Of a stretch of 35,250 nucleotides of DNA, positions 24,770-31,398 are shown one piece after another (position 1 is the first letter of the stretch; the number at the start of each line of letters is the position of its first letter). Source of the stretch: Synechococcus sp. ARS1019 (lineage in GTDB: Bacteria; Cyanobacteriota; Cyanobacteriia; PCC-6307; Cyanobiaceae); the NCBI GenBank assembly GCA_002690325.1, contig NZED01000038.1:11914-47163 (forward strand), read 5' to 3'. The notes below the pieces were generated by a model that was not told the origin of the DNA, did no database searches, and saw only the letters and a program-made list of their open reading frames with translations. The position numbers and the translations under genes are program-made.

Positions 24770-25330
24770 ATGGCGCCTCTGCCGTCACCGGAACGTTTTG
24801 AACTACTGGAAACGGTGGAGGCAGTGGATGCGCGAAAGATTCGCTTCGAGCGCAATCGGATCAAGTTGCCGATGGGGGTGGAAGGCACCTTCGGGATGAT
24901 TCGCCATCCAGGGGCTTCTCTGGCTGTGCCAGTTACGGCGGATGGGCAAGTGGTGCTGCTGCGTCAGTACCGCTTCGCTGTGCAGGCGCGCCTGCTTGAG
25001 TTCCCCGCTGGCACTTTGGAAGACGGCGAAGATCCCCTGGAATCGATGCAGCGGGAGCTTGGAGAAGAAGCTGGTTACAGCGCAGCCAAGTGGGATGTTC
25101 TCGGGCCGATGCTGCCCTGCCCGGGCTATTCCGATGAGGTGATCCACTGCTTCTTGGCTCGGGAGCTCACGGCCCTCGATAATCCACCGGCTGGGGATGA
25201 CGACGAAGATTTGGAGGTGGTGCTGATGACGCCGGCGGCCCTGGATGCCGCCCTCGCCTCCGGCGATGAATGGCTCGATGGCAAAAGCGTCACTGCCTGG
25301 TTCCGCGCTAAGCAGGTGTTGGGTCTCTGA
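24770..25330 (+). CDS. Nudix hydrolase, ADP-ribose pyrophosphatase-like
   Basis: The 186-residue protein carries a complete Nudix box, GTLEDGEDPLESMQRELGEE followed by AGY (G-x5-E-x7-REUxEExGU). It is preceded by VVLLRQYRFAVQARLLEFPA, which is typical of the ADP-ribose pyrophosphatase group (NudF-like). These enzymes split ADP-ribose or related nucleoside diphosphate sugars into monophosphates. The substrate is inferred from the subgroup; other NDP-sugars are possible. It shares one base with the photolyase gene (TGATG), so the two are probably translated together. The start is 28 bases from that of the divergent ABC exporter gene. Confidence 0.88.
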   Translation: MAPLPSPERFELLETVEAVDARKIRFERNRIKLPMGVEGTFGMIRHPGASLAVPVTADGQVVLLRQYRFAVQARLLEFPAGTLEDGEDPLESMQRELGEEAGYSAAKWDVLGPMLPCPGYSDEVIHCFLARELTALDNPPAGDDDEDLEVVLMTPAALDAALASGDEWLDGKSVTAWFRAKQVLGL

Positions 25331-26763
25331 TGGCTTCCTCTCGCGTTCTGTTCTGGCATCGCCGTGATCTGCGTCTAGCAGACAACCTTGGACTGGAGTC
25401 TGCCGTTGCGATCAGCCCCGCCGTGACGGGGATCTACATCCTCGATCCGATGTTGGTTGATCCCCCCCCGGAGCTCCCGCCAATGGCTCCGGCTCGGCTG
25501 TGGTTCCTGATCGAGAGCCTGATTGAACTGCAGCAGCGTTGGCGCGATGCCGGCAGTCGTCTGGTGGTTGTCGAGGGTGACCCAGTCGCGGTCGTGCCTC
25601 AGTTGGCGGATCAGCTTGGTGCTGAGGCGGTGGTGTGGAACCGCGATGTGGAGCCCTATGCCCGCGAACGGGACCGCCAGGTGGCCAAACGTTTGCAGGC
25701 TGATGGCCGCAAGGTGGTGGTGGACTGGGATCAGTTGTTGGTGGCACCGGAGCTGCTCAAAACTGGTGCCGGTGATCCATATCGGGTGTATGGCCCCTTC
25801 CTGCGCAACTGGCGTGGACAGGTGCAGGCGAAGCAGCCCACAACGGTTTCTGCACCAAGGGATTTAGTCGACCTCGACCCCGCTCAGGTGCCGGCGGGGG
25901 ACCCTCTGGCGGCACTGCGAACGAGCCATGGTTTCAAGGGAACCGAGCTCTGCCCCTGCCGTCCCGGTGAGGCGTCAGCCTTGGAGCAGCTCAACAGCTT
26001 CTGTGATCGAGCTTTGTTCCGCTATGAGCCGGATCGGAACTTCCCTGGTGTTGTCGGCACGTCATATCTGAGTGCGGCCCTGAGTGTTGGCACTCTCAGC
26101 CCACGTCAGGCCTGGTGTGCGGCCCAGGAGGCTAGGCAGCAGGTGCGTAGCGATGAGCAACAGCAGGCGATTGCGGTTTGGGAGCAGGAGCTGGGATGGC
26201 GCGAGTTTTACCAGCAGGCCCTCTTTCATTTCCCAGAGCTTGCTGATGGCCCCTACCGGGAGCAGTGGCACCGCTTCCCATGGGAGAACAACAAGGATTG
26301 GTTCGACTTCTGGAAGGACGGCCAGACCGGCATGCCGATCATCGATGCCGCCATGCGTCAGCTCAATCAGACCGGGTGGATGCATAACCGCTGCCGCATG
26401 ATCGTGGCCTCCTTTCTTGTGAAGGATTTGATCTGCGATTGGCGCTGGGGTGAGCGCGCTTTTATGGAATTGGAAGTGGATGGTGATCTCGCTGCCAACA
26501 ATGGCGGTTGGCAGTGGAGTGCCAGCAGCGGGATGGATCCAAAGCCACTCAGAATCTTTAACCCCGCCACCCAAGCCAGCAAGTTCGATGCGGCCGGCGA
26601 CTACATCCGCCACTGGGTGCCCGAACTCCGGCACGTCAACACGAAGGATTTGCTCAGCGGCCAGATCGGGGCACTAGAGCGGCGCGACTATCCCGAACCG
26701 TTGGTGGATCACAAGAAGCAACAGGCGAGCTTCAAGGCGCTTTACGCCACCATCCGATCCTGA
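25330..26763 (+). CDS. phrB: Deoxyribodipyrimidine photolyase (class I CPD type)
   Basis: This full-length 477-residue flavoprotein repairs UV-induced pyrimidine dimers using blue light. The N-terminal antenna domain begins VLFWHRRDLRLADNLGLESA. The FAD domain includes GTSYLSAALSVGTLSPRQAW, WEQELGWREFYQQALFHFPE and DGQTGMPIIDAAMRQLNQTG. It continues with WMHNRCRMIVASFLVKDL and NNGGWQWSASSGMDPKPLRI followed by FNP, all matching class I CPD photolyases. The C-terminus (LVDHKKQQASFKALYAT) is normal. It is cotranscribed with the upstream Nudix gene. Its last 22 bases overlap the end of the convergent aminotransferase gene. It is a useful internal comparison for the split photolyase-like pair at 29167-30533. 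Confidence 0.95.
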   Translation: MASSRVLFWHRRDLRLADNLGLESAVAISPAVTGIYILDPMLVDPPPELPPMAPARLWFLIESLIELQQRWRDAGSRLVVVEGDPVAVVPQLADQLGAEAVVWNRDVEPYARERDRQVAKRLQADGRKVVVDWDQLLVAPELLKTGAGDPYRVYGPFLRNWRGQVQAKQPTTVSAPRDLVDLDPAQVPAGDPLAALRTSHGFKGTELCPCRPGEASALEQLNSFCDRALFRYEPDRNFPGVVGTSYLSAALSVGTLSPRQAWCAAQEARQQVRSDEQQQAIAVWEQELGWREFYQQALFHFPELADGPYREQWHRFPWENNKDWFDFWKDGQTGMPIIDAAMRQLNQTGWMHNRCRMIVASFLVKDLICDWRWGERAFMELEVDGDLAANNGGWQWSASSGMDPKPLRIFNPATQASKFDAAGDYIRHWVPELRHVNTKDLLSGQIGALERRDYPEPLVDHKKQQASFKALYATIRS

Positions 26764-27996: not shown

Positions 27997-28566
27997 TCAG
28001 CCAAACCAGTCGGGTTCCTGTCCGGGGTTCCACTTCACATTGCAGCCCACGGATGGTGTCTGGTCGGGATTCACAGCTGTTCCATTCAGCACGGCATCGA
28101 GTGCTGCGCGGAGGTCTTGGCCGTTCAGGATCTGCTCATTGCCTGGGCGGCTGCTGTCCAGTTGACCGCGATAGTGCAGTGTCTGATGGCCGTTGGGATT
28201 CGGGTTGAACAGATAAAACTCTGGGGTGCAGGCCGCACGCAGCGCCTTGGCCAGGCTGTGCTGATCATCCAAGAGGTAAGGAAAGCGCCAGCCCTGTCGC
28301 TCGGCCTGCTCCGCGAGCTGTTTGGGTCCGTCTTGGGGGTGGGTGATCAGGCTGTTGCTGCTGATCCCAATCATTTGGATCCGTGAGCCGTAATCCTGCT
28401 CCAGGCGGCTGAGTTCAGGTTCCACGTGCTTCACGAAGGGGCAGTGGGCACAGAGCACCATCAGCAGCGCAGGCCGTTGATCAAGATCCGCGCTGCTGAA
28501 GCTTCCGTGCAGGTCGTGAACGCTCGGTAGAGCAAACACAGGTAAAGAGCTGCCCAGGGGCAGCAT
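27997..28566 (-). CDS. Thioredoxin-like (AhpC/TSA-type) redoxin
   Basis: The 189-residue protein has a thioredoxin fold with a CxxC active site in LMVLCAHCPFVKHVEPELSR. This resembles the CNHCPFVKH motif of a widespread thioredoxin-family group. Other typical parts are MIGISSNSLITHPQDGP and FPYLLDDQHSLAKALRAACT followed by PEFYLF. The C-terminus ends SVGCNVKWNPGQEPDWF, a segment with a third cysteine that is conserved in this group. It may act as a peroxiredoxin or thiol-disulfide reductase; the substrate is unknown. The ATG at 28566 (MLPLGSSLPVFALPS) is chosen because the domain begins there. It is divergent from the lipoprotein gene and 19 bases upstream of the aminotransferase gene. Confidence 0.87.
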   Translation of the reverse strand: MLPLGSSLPVFALPSVHDLHGSFSSADLDQRPALLMVLCAHCPFVKHVEPELSRLEQDYGSRIQMIGISSNSLITHPQDGPKQLAEQAERQGWRFPYLLDDQHSLAKALRAACTPEFYLFNPNPNGHQTLHYRGQLDSSRPGNEQILNGQDLRAALDAVLNGTAVNPDQTPSVGCNVKWNPGQEPDWFG

Positions 28567-28618
28567 GGTTGATGGAGTGAGGGCCAAATCGCTGCAGCCG
28601 CGAGGAACCTCCAGCAGG

Positions 28619-29170
28619 ATGGCGGTTCGATCGCAGTGGCTGCTGTTGAAGCCAACCATTCCTTTTTGTTTGGGACTTGTTGGAGTGCTGTTCGGCTGCA
28701 GTGCACCGAAGCCCGAAGGCACTTGGCGGGTGCTGCCGTTATCACGCAATGTCGCCCACGACGGCTTGGCCGTGGTGAATCAGCCCGATGGCTATGGGAT
28801 TCATATTTTTCTGGAGACAGACACCAGCGATCCGAACGTCTGCAAACCGCGGTGGCTCCCTGATCCAGCGCGGCTGTTCAACGGAAACGGCAGCACCCCC
28901 TTCAGCTCTGGGCTTGGGAGTCGCCAGGAGTTTTTTGAGGTGGTTCGTCGCCGCGATGTGACCAAAGCCCTGCAACGGGAACTAAAGGCGCTGTGCAACA
29001 CCCGAGCTCCGGAGGCCAACTGGCAATGGTTCGCACCACCCCGCTCAGAGGATGAGGTGGTGCCGGTTCGTCTGCCTGCACTGGAGGAAGAGGACCTCCT
29101 CACCAACCCCGTGGAGGAGCTCAAACGGGTGAAGCAACTGTTGAAGGAGGCTCAGCAGAGGGACGACTAA
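28619..29170 (+). CDS. Hypothetical lipoprotein
   Basis: The 183-residue protein has a lipoprotein signal: basic start, hydrophobic stretch (PFCLGLVGVLFGC) and lipobox LFGC with the cysteine at about residue 27. The rest contains no domain I recognise. It has a mixed alpha/beta start (LAVVNQPDGYGIHIFLETD), three further cysteines, and a charged helical C-terminus (NPVEELKRVKQLLKEAQQRD). The ATG at 28619 is preceded by AGCAGG, a plausible ribosome site. It is likely attached to the inner leaflet of the outer membrane or to the plasma membrane. It overlaps the end of the convergent photolyase-domain gene by four bases. The redoxin gene diverges 52 bases upstream. Confidence 0.7.
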   Translation: MAVRSQWLLLKPTIPFCLGLVGVLFGCSAPKPEGTWRVLPLSRNVAHDGLAVVNQPDGYGIHIFLETDTSDPNVCKPRWLPDPARLFNGNGSTPFSSGLGSRQEFFEVVRRRDVTKALQRELKALCNTRAPEANWQWFAPPRSEDEVVPVRLPALEEEDLLTNPVEELKRVKQLLKEAQQRDD

Positions 29171-29595
29171 AAGCCTTCCCAAACCACGCGTTCCGCTTCT
29201 CGCCAATAGCGACTGAAGCGTCCCAGGCGCGGAGGCCTCGGCAGCTCCACAAAGGGCTCTGGGTCCAAAATGATGAGGGGCAAGTCGCGCTCAATGGAGG
29301 CGGCGATCTGCCTGAGGCGCGGCTCGACGGCAGCGCTGGTCACAACGCCATCAGCGCTATGGCGTTCAGCAAAGCGGAGCACTTCAGTTGCCACGTCTCC
29401 CTTGCGAAGGGTGACGGGCAGTTCCAAGCAGGATTCATAGAGGAACCCAAGCCGTTTACGGCTGATGCGTTGGTCTCGGATCCAGGCCTCATCGAACACA
29501 AAGAGTGCTGCCGCGTTGGGGTAGTCCTGCAGTGCTGGATTGGCGGGGCCAAGGGCTTCCTCGTGCACCCAGAGGATCGGTTGTCGAATGGTCAT
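29167..29595 (-). CDS. Stand-alone photolyase N-terminal alpha/beta (antenna-type) domain protein
   Basis: The 142-residue protein resembles only the N-terminal Rossmann-like domain of photolyases and cryptochromes. It opens with a strand and loop (PILWVHEEALGPANPAL) similar to VLFWHRRDLRLADN of the full photolyase in this window. AALFVFDEAWIRDQRISRKR, LGFLYESCLELPVTLRKGD and VLRFAERHSADGVVTSAAVE follow. It ends YWREAERVVWEGF with no FAD-binding part. In full-length enzymes this domain holds the light-harvesting cofactor. It starts 20 bases after the stop of the FAD-domain gene, so the two are surely cotranscribed. I infer that it supplies the missing domain in trans. The stop overlaps the lipoprotein stop. 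Confidence 0.75.
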   Translation of the reverse strand: MTIRQPILWVHEEALGPANPALQDYPNAAALFVFDEAWIRDQRISRKRLGFLYESCLELPVTLRKGDVATEVLRFAERHSADGVVTSAAVEPRLRQIAASIERDLPLIILDPEPFVELPRPPRLGRFSRYWREAERVVWEGF

Positions 29596-29615
29596 GGATT
29601 GATGGCGTTACTCGG

Positions 29616-30533
29616 TTATCGCTTCGGACGAGCCAGGGCGGCATTCGCACCACCACGCCCCCGGTCTCGGGTTTTGTTGGTCCGTCGGTTGCTGTTGGTC
29701 CGAATCGCGGGCTGGGGGGCAAACAACTGGTTTTCGAGTTGGTCGTAGCTGCCCTCGAATGGGCACTGCTCAGCGCTGGAGCAGACCTTGCAGTAGCGAC
29801 CGTCGCTGTAGCGCTCCAAATTGCCGCGATTGAAGAAGTACGGCTTATGGCTGAAGCTGCTGGCCACCCATTGCCAACTCAGGTGATTGCTGGATGGGTC
29901 GCCATCGAGCAAATGTTCCAGGAACCAGTCGGCTCCAGCTTTCCAGTGCACTCGGCGCCAGTGCACGAGATAGCCCGCCATCCACATCCGTGCGTGGTTG
30001 TGCAACCAGCCGCTGCTGACCAGTTCATCGCGAAAACGATCCATGCAGGTCAGGCCAGTGCGACCTTCGCGGATGTCGTCGGGTAGTTCACGGCTGTAGC
30101 TGGCAGCGTCGTGGCCAGTTTTCATCTCCTCTTGGTCGTCGTGGATTCCGTCACCCAAGTCGTCCCACATCCGCTGCCAGAAGTCCCGCCAGCCCAATTC
30201 ATTGATCAGCTTGCTGCCGTCATCACGCTGCAGCTGGCGATCCTTGAGTTGCTGAAAGACCGCGTCGCGCACCTCTGCGAGGGTCAGCACTCCATGGCGG
30301 ATATAGGGAGATAGTCGGGTGACCGCTCCAGCGAGATGATTTCGGCTGCGCCCGTAGCGCTTGGCATCCATTTGCCGCAGCTGGCGTTCGGCCGCCTTTC
30401 GACCACCTTGCACCGAGCTGAGGCTGCCTTCCGCGTCTGGGAAGGCTGTGGTGAGAAGGGTTTCCAGCGCCTGTCGGCTGGCAAACCGTTTGGGGAGATC
30501 CCCTGGACTGGCTTGAGCTGGATCGGCGGTCAC
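29616..30533 (-). CDS. Short photolyase-like protein: FAD-binding domain only, with four-cysteine iron-sulfur pattern
   Basis: The protein has 305 residues from a GTG start. It lacks the photolyase N-terminal domain but has the FAD and DNA-binding half: YGRSRNHLAGAVTRLSPYIR, LINELGWRDFWQRMW, SGWLHNHARMWMAGYLVHW and GDPSSNHLSWQWVASSFSHK. Cysteines at 163 (LTCMDRF), 248, 251 and 257 (YCKVC and CPFEGSY) match the order and context of 4Fe-4S ligands in FeS bacterial photolyases, as I remember them (YCxxC ... CPF). The C-terminal tail is basic and disordered (RTNSNRRTNKTRDRGRGG). The start is inferred: AGG lies before the GTG at 30533, and longer versions overlap fabI. The separate alpha/beta domain gene follows directly. 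Confidence 0.82.
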   Translation of the reverse strand: MTADPAQASPGDLPKRFASRQALETLLTTAFPDAEGSLSSVQGGRKAAERQLRQMDAKRYGRSRNHLAGAVTRLSPYIRHGVLTLAEVRDAVFQQLKDRQLQRDDGSKLINELGWRDFWQRMWDDLGDGIHDDQEEMKTGHDAASYSRELPDDIREGRTGLTCMDRFRDELVSSGWLHNHARMWMAGYLVHWRRVHWKAGADWFLEHLLDGDPSSNHLSWQWVASSFSHKPYFFNRGNLERYSDGRYCKVCSSAEQCPFEGSYDQLENQLFAPQPAIRTNSNRRTNKTRDRGRGGANAALARPKR

Positions 30534-30615: not shown

Positions 30616-31398
30616 ATGCTGCTCGATCTCACTGGTAAGAAGATCCTCGTCACCGGCATCGCCAATAACCGTTCGATCGCCTGGGGGATCGCTCAGCAGC
30701 TCAAGGCTGCTGGTGCCGATCTGGGCATTACCTATCTGCCAGACGAGAAGGGTCGTTTCGAATCCAAGGTGCGAGAGCTCACCGCTCCTCTCGAGCCCAG
30801 CTTGTTCCTGCCCCTGAATGTTCAAGATGCTGATCAGATGGCCGGAGTCTTTGCGGAGATCAAAGAGAAGTGGGGCGTTCTCGATGGCCTCGTCCACTGT
30901 TTGGCCTTCGCGGGCAAGGAGGAGTTGATCGGTGACTACAGCGCGACGACGGCAGAGGGTTTTGCCCGTTCTCTCGACATCAGCGCTTACTCCTTGGCTC
31001 CCCTGTGCGCCCATGCCAAGCCGCTCTTCAGTGAGAAAGCCGGCGTGATCACGCTGTCTTACCTCGGTGCTGAACGTGCCATCCCTAACTACAACGTGAT
31101 GGGTGTGGCCAAGGCTGCCTTGGAAGCATCAGTTCGCTATTTGGCAGCTGAGCTTGGCCCCGAGAAGCAGGTGCGTGTGAATGCCATCAGCGCGGGCCCA
31201 ATTCGCACCCTGGCGAGCTCTGCCATCGGCGGCATCCTCGAGATGATCCATAACGTCGAAGAAAAAGCACCGCTGCGTCGCACCGTTACCCAAATGGAAG
31301 TTGGCGGCACGGCTGCATTTCTGTTGAGTGATCTGGCCAGTGGGATCTCTGGTCAAACCATCTACGTGGATGCCGGCTACTGCGTCACCGGAATGTGA
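30616..31398 (+). CDS. fabI: Enoyl-[acyl-carrier-protein] reductase (NADH)
   Basis: This 260-residue SDR enzyme makes the last reduction in each cycle of type II fatty acid synthesis. It begins [20 protein letters not shown] followed by IAWGIAQQL, the FabI cofactor loop. The catalytic Tyr-x6-Lys is in [19 protein letters not shown], preceded by [31 protein letters not shown] and [15 protein letters not shown] also match FabI. The ATG at 30616 gives the normal length. It is followed 34 bases later by hisB. It is divergent from the short photolyase gene, the starts being about 80 bases apart. Confidence 0.96.

Follow-up and report, generated by a model that had tools for sequence, protein, structure and literature searches.

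A reversed-order pair of photolyase half-genes in Synechococcus sp. ARS1019 and its relatives across bacterial phyla

Two adjacent genes in the 35,250-nucleotide stretch of Synechococcus sp. ARS1019 DNA analyzed here (the window) likely encode the catalytic and alpha/beta subunits of one light-driven DNA-repair enzyme that is assembled in trans. The directly supported parts of this reading are the presence of both domains, their strict co-occurrence, their natural fusions and the conserved active-site positions. In the mechanism that we propose, the large subunit would bind FAD and probably a [4Fe-4S] cluster, and would repair UV lesions, most likely cyclobutane pyrimidine dimers (CPDs) to judge from its residues, with excited reduced FAD as the electron donor. 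The small subunit, with its photolyase alpha/beta fold, would dock in trans on the large subunit at the site where the N-terminal domain of a one-piece photolyase would sit; within such a heterodimer it would make the fold complete and may also hold an antenna pigment. Since SPL proteins are reported to be CPD-repair enzymes that contain an Fe-S cluster and lack an alpha/beta domain (PMC9649867, available text), catalysis may not require the small subunit.

The gene pair, including the heterodimer idea, is already known. A heterodimeric photolyase was proposed in 2012 from the pair SynWH7803_0267/0266 of Synechococcus WH7803 (PMC3441193), and in 2022 the pair was named phr4/phr5, its reversed order was noted, and either a heterodimer or a frameshift product, together with a (6-4) substrate, was offered for it (PMC9426592; both papers are cited throughout from their accessible portions). 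The first-pass annotation, which was made from the sequence of the window and named no described neighboring partner, therefore overlooked two accounts of exactly this pair, and its interpretation as a whole was partly supported. As set out below, the pair occurs more widely, and its two genes go together more strictly, than the published accounts found indicate, as far as their accessible text goes.

The locus and its catalytic protein

The two minus-strand ORFs lie side by side, 20 bases apart, at the coordinates first given for them (Table 1), a spacing that puts them in different reading frames (20 mod 3 = 2). At this pair the FAD domain precedes the alpha/beta domain, the opposite of the order in the one-piece photolyase encoded at 25330-26763. 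The mechanical ORF of the large gene starts further upstream, at a TTG at 30665; the GTG start is plausible because conservation in relatives starts near residue 10 of the 305-aa version. The source genome (G000) comprises 63 contigs and is 89% complete, with the window lying within contig C33. Among the matches listed, the nearest named relatives at the locus were marine Synechococcus, i.e., WH7803 (locus L034), whose large and small proteins were 79% and 71% identical to those of the window.

A convergent 201-aa ORF (28565-29170, plus strand), in which no Pfam family was detected at E <= 0.1, shares four bases at its 3' end (29167-29170) with the end of the small gene. Elsewhere in the window, a Nudix hydrolase gene (24770-25330, plus strand; PF00293, E 9.6e-17) ends on the first base of the one-piece photolyase gene (plus strand); a nudix hydrolase-photolyase operon is mentioned for Prochlorococcus MED4 in the available text of PMC9649867.

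Table 1. Coordinates of the gene pair and of the putative cluster ligands, in positions of the window.
Feature	Coordinates	Strand	Basis
Gene of the large subunit (Phr4 / SPL type; 305 aa; starts with GTG), photolyase FAD-binding catalytic domain	29616..30533	-	PF03441
Gene of the small subunit (Phr5; 142 aa; starts with ATG), photolyase-type alpha/beta domain on its own	29167..29595	-	PF00875 E-value, model, structural match
20-base gap, large-gene stop to small-gene start	29596..29615	-	
Cys163 codon, putative [4Fe-4S] ligand 1	30045..30047	-	invariant in 25/25 rows of alignment A2
Cys248, Cys251 and Cys257 codons, putative [4Fe-4S] ligands 2-4	29763..29792	-	invariant in 25/25 rows of alignment A2

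In agreement with its initial annotation as the FAD half of a photolyase, the product of the large gene matched PF03441 (E 1.8e-22, 80.2 bits), well above the curated cut-off of 27, and no PF00875 match was found in it. When aligned with the class I photolyase of the window, E112, W115, N179, M183 and W197 of the large protein corresponded to E287, W290, N353, M357 and W371, and D210, D212, N216, W220 and W222 to D384, D386, N390, W394 and W396, every one of these residues being kept; around Asn179 and Asn353 the two proteins read LHNH and MHNR, respectively. We take the Glu, Asn and Met positions to be CPD contacts. In the DPRP-type photolyase of this genome (L003; Pfam DPRP, E 1e-49), whose DPRP domain is that of the (6-4)-type Phr2, the equivalent residues are CHHI, with His at the position of Asn179; this one protein, aligned by eye, makes up the (6-4) side of the comparison. 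Because the active-site residues match those of the class I enzyme and L003 has His at Asn179, these positions favor a CPD over a (6-4) lesion. The numbering offset to the Synechococcus PCC 6301 enzyme, i.e., 4, was taken from the FAD-contact list in PMC9426592. The four invariant cysteines of the large protein (Table 1) probably hold a [4Fe-4S] cluster, a ligand role carried over from PMC9426592, in which the four Fe-S cysteines of Phr4 are noted.

The class I-like active-site positions, with Asn179 equivalent to Asn353, the CHHI of L003 and the CPD repair reported for SPL proteins, which also contain an Fe-S cluster (PMC9649867), make it unlikely that the pair constitutes a (6-4) photolyase, the activity predicted in PMC9426592 on the grounds of the Fe-S cysteines and of a mutant phenotype biased to UV-C. 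Three observations speak for that prediction. The four cysteines are invariant; interruption of phr4 lowered UV-C survival 20-30 fold with no effect under UV-B (PMC9426592); and the FAD half of a predicted fusion structure described below (L077) had its top structural matches among bacterial (6-4) photolyases (7ykn, Z 16.8, rmsd 3.3, 244 residues aligned; 5kcm_A, Z 16.4, rmsd 3.4, 245 aligned), the class I enzyme 1iqr scoring about one Z unit lower (Z 15.7, rmsd 3.2, 239 aligned).

Between the repair enzyme and the photoreceptor that were initially proposed side by side, the CPD active-site positions and the UV-C-sensitive phr4 mutant (PMC9426592) support the former, and nothing was found that favors the latter. 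A blue-light photoreceptor with no repair function, to which the occurrence of both folds among cryptochromes might point, is improbable given that the CPD-photolyase positions are kept, that the mutant is sensitive to UV-C and that E. coli is protected: in a strain lacking phr and lexA, phr4/phr5 raised UV-C survival 10-20 fold, with no UV-B effect (PMC9426592). This protection did not differ significantly between light and dark, which counts against light-driven repair. Transcripts of phr4 and phr5 in WH7803 rise after UV (cited in PMC9426592). In the open-licence literature searched, no biochemistry of the pair was found.

As to the pigment, CofH, a subunit of FO synthase, was absent at E <= 1e-20 from all 34 genomes of the genus, the source genome included (19 of high quality), while the control, Synechococcus elongatus, was positive. 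Thus, 8-HDF is unlikely to serve as antenna in these organisms unless it is acquired otherwise; Phr3 of the same organisms is assumed by analogy to bind it (PMC9426592).

The small protein as a photolyase-type alpha/beta domain

The likeness of the small protein to a photolyase alpha/beta domain, claimed at first pass, was upheld by family, profile and structural comparisons. PF00875 was the one Pfam family that it matched, and here the E-value (1.6e-4) bore out the expected match whereas the score (22.1 bits) fell short of the curated cut-off of 26.6, for which reason we call the protein photolyase-type rather than a member by the Pfam cut-off. No NCBIfam model matched it. A PDB search with the single sequence returned no photolyase; with a profile of 33 small proteins, cryptochromes and photolyases were retrieved (8p4x, the best, E 1.8e-4; 1owl, E 0.0039). 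By hhalign, the protein was aligned with the full photolyase of the window over residues 23-105 (P 1.8e-7).

The predicted model of the small protein (pLDDT 94.1, pTM 0.84) aligned over residues 4-142 with the alpha/beta domain of CryB (3zxs_A, Z 12.3, rmsd 3.5, 137 residues aligned), so that the same fold extends over the whole domain, and over the same residues with that of the E. coli enzyme (1dnp_A, Z 11.9, rmsd 3.7, 137 aligned). Alignments with certain other photolyases ended at residue 113, with 108-110 residues aligned (5kcm_A, 108). Seven residues were invariant in the small-protein alignment (A1), four of them within a C-terminal LxRFSRYW motif, which we take to be the counterpart of the motif that closes the photolyase alpha/beta domain.

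Universal stress proteins (Usp) also aligned with the model, over 96-109 residues (the top match being 2z09, Z 10.6, rmsd 3.1, 98 aligned), and Pfam Usp weakly matched 2 of 44 small-protein relatives (best E 0.0091). It is nevertheless very improbable that the small protein is a separate alpha/beta nucleotide-binding protein of universal-stress type, co-regulated with the photolyase and not a structural subunit of it. PF00875 was matched at E <= 0.01 by 19 of the same 44 relatives when scanned singly (the other 25 missing that value), and many photolyases and cryptochromes aligned along almost the entire chain, the C-terminal helix that bears LxRFSRYW included; the natural fusions and the strict co-occurrence reported below argue in the same direction.

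The small gene is no chance feature of the window: it was present in 30 of 59 relatives searched and in 28 of 34 genomes of its own genus, the six genus genomes without it being assemblies at most 79% complete. Related small domains adjoin or are fused to the large domain as far afield as the Planctomycetota. A scan of IMG/VR with the small-protein profile, based on one peptide pattern, confirmed no relative. Comparison with Prochlorococcus Phr7 gave no support for a common origin of its C-terminal (Z) domain and the small subunit (hhalign P 0.45, with 26 of 100 shuffles scoring as well).

Co-occurrence, linkage and fusion across genomes

Both genes co-occurred in related genomes, as the first-pass annotation required. 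Among 156 Cyanobacteriota genomes (completeness of 90 requested; the window's own genome, at 89%, included), the large protein scored above 400 bits in 28 and the small protein above 150 bits in the identical 28. These thresholds were fixed once it was apparent where strong matches separate from weak ones, the next-best scores being 229 bits for the large protein (G098, with no small match) and 39 bits for the small one (a second match in G148). The two genes were adjacent in 14 of the 28 genomes, within 2.5 kb in three and unlinked in 11, i.e., on separate contigs in seven and 0.48-4.9 Mb apart on one contig in four. Presence of the pair was mixed within families f1, f28 and f29; in genus g39, seven of the eight listed genomes had both genes, unlinked, and one (G164) had neither. 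Since the genomes are not independent, no probability is claimed for the co-occurrence.

The profiles used (A1 and A2) contain cyanobacterial members and are thus most sensitive in cyanobacteria. The scans also covered 119 genomes from the phylum to which a Bryobacter MAG (G263) belongs, with matches listed only to E 1e-40 and 1e-9; two of these genomes had both proteins strongly, one of them (G361) unlinked, and G324 gave an intermediate large-protein match (145.6 bits) with no small match. Speaking against the two-subunit reading are the FAD-domain matches of G098 and G324 that lack a small match, the weak PF00875 scores and the core fold shared with Usp.

Two further proteins with SPL-like FAD domains were observed in these genomes. 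One is encoded at G324:C1:2876654-2877277. The other, a 451-aa minus-strand ORF (L151, G098:C38:8600-11600), continues beyond its FAD domain for some 200 residues, among them RSFSQFWEVA, a stretch reminiscent of the small-subunit motif; the likeness between this C-terminal part and the small protein (P 0.025 by hhalign, a value that 1 of 100 shuffles equaled) is a lead only.

Linkage was assessed on loci found with the large protein alone, loci L005-L033, found with the small protein, being excluded. In the best 80 of at least 574 such loci, the small gene was next door in 41, fused in 25 and not linked in 14; tblastn placed the small domain downstream in 62 of the 80, and the profile added four (L094, adjacent; L108, L110 and L112, fused). 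The FAD domain came first in every linked or fused locus counted among these 80, and the fused ORFs among them belonged to Planctomycetota, Acidobacteriota and Pseudomonadota (Methylotenera). Thirteen of the 14 loci without linkage (Scytonema, Brasilonema, Fischerella and kin) had a full small gene elsewhere in the genome (E 1e-53 to 1e-64), and the fourteenth, from a Chloroflexi MAG (L066), had a partial match (profile positions 54-141, E 8.8e-32). A second, full-length photolyase-like gene was seen near the pair or fusion in several Acidobacteriota and Pseudomonadota (L076, L078, L082, L094, L108, L110 and L113).

On a tree of FAD domains (quick method, 84 rows, 41 loci judged redundant by hand left out), the fused label changed at least twice on starred branches, and four times at the fewest; L066 carried the label 'adjacent' despite having no small gene in its locus. 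Fusion or fission has thus recurred; the root of the tree is unsafe because of long branches among the full-length photolyases. For a natural fusion from Acidobacteriaceae (L077, 422 aa), structure prediction with 41 sequences gave a model of pLDDT 92.5 and pTM 0.92, in which both domains are therefore confidently placed relative to each other; structural matches of this model mostly span the FAD half only. Taken together, co-occurrence even where the genes are unlinked, natural fusions and the confident two-domain model lend good support to the initial proposal that the alpha/beta domain is supplied in trans.

The least probable reading, by our estimate a very remote one, is that programmed frameshifting at the junction produces a single reversed-order photolyase, as raised in PMC9426592: fused genes do exist (phr6, PMC9426592, and the 25 among the best 80 of at least 574 loci) and the small gene of the window is out of frame with the large one, but across 42 distinct pairs from picocyanobacteria (start codons set by script; source loci of at most 28 pairs from L005-L033) the spacing ranged from -104 to +30 bases, with frame classes 2, 0 and 1 represented by 22, 13 and 7 pairs, and the genes are unlinked in 11 of the 28 cyanobacterial genomes and in G361. 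Since every one of the three relative frames is represented, one kind of frameshift could not join all of the pairs, and frameshift fusion was rejected as a general mechanism. The three frames and the unlinked genes together argue for two polypeptides.

Wider meaning and comparison with known systems

Beyond the two-subunit enzyme itself, we lean slightly toward the view that SPL proteins, proposed to be the single-domain forms from which all photolyases descend, serve as the catalytic subunit in an obligate two-component system, a photolyase whose parts are kept or lost together, and whose reversed-order halves have been repeatedly fused, split and unlinked across Cyanobacteriota, Acidobacteriota, Planctomycetota and Proteobacteria. 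If so, the missing alpha/beta domain of SPL would reflect gene structure and not a primitive state, which would weaken the argument for SPL as the primitive single-domain form, and a DNA-repair flavoenzyme would be built from two separately encoded halves. The natural fused and unlinked versions allow direct tests of the role of the alpha/beta domain, and the same reading would help settle the question left open in the accessible portions of PMC9426592, i.e., whether there is one polypeptide or two.

The class I CPD photolyase of the window shares with the pair both domain families and the active-site positions. It differs in having the alpha/beta domain first, in being a single chain and in lacking all four cysteines where these would align. 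The Phr7 / NewPHL single-stranded DNA CPD photolyases (Emmerich et al. 2020, via the accessible portions of PMC9426592 and PMC13274461) resemble the pair in that the FAD domain comes first and is accompanied by an extra C-terminal domain; in these enzymes, however, that Z-domain lies within the chain and shows no detectable similarity to the small subunit, which here has a gene of its own, and the Fe-S cysteines are lacking (PMC9426592). The fused ORFs described above, like Phr6 in two strains of Cyanobium (PMC9426592), carry both domains in the reversed order, albeit within a single polypeptide where the window has two.

By description, the large protein fits the published SPL proteins (Xu et al. 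2021, via the accessible portions of PMC9178010, PMC9649867 and PMC9498864), with which it shares a short length, an FAD domain with no N-terminal alpha/beta domain in the chain, and cysteines for a putative Fe-S cluster (C163, C248, C251 and C257). It differs in that those descriptions, in the portions accessible, include no alpha/beta partner gene, whereas one accompanies each of the 28 strong Cyanobacteriota matches; a pairing of SPL-type proteins with an alpha/beta partner across phyla was not found in the accessible open-licence literature searched.

The closest known system is Phr4/Phr5 (PMC9426592; PMC3441193), which is the same in gene pair, order, domain content and cysteines, and which is present in all marine Synechococcus and in half of the six Cyanobium strains of the published set (PMC9426592). 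The adjacent genes in this order in marine Synechococcus and the Fe-S cysteines are found here as well. The spacing differs, being seven bases in all strains according to PMC9426592 and 20 bases in the window, and a seven-base gap occurred in only two of our 42 distinct pairs, with starts chosen by script.
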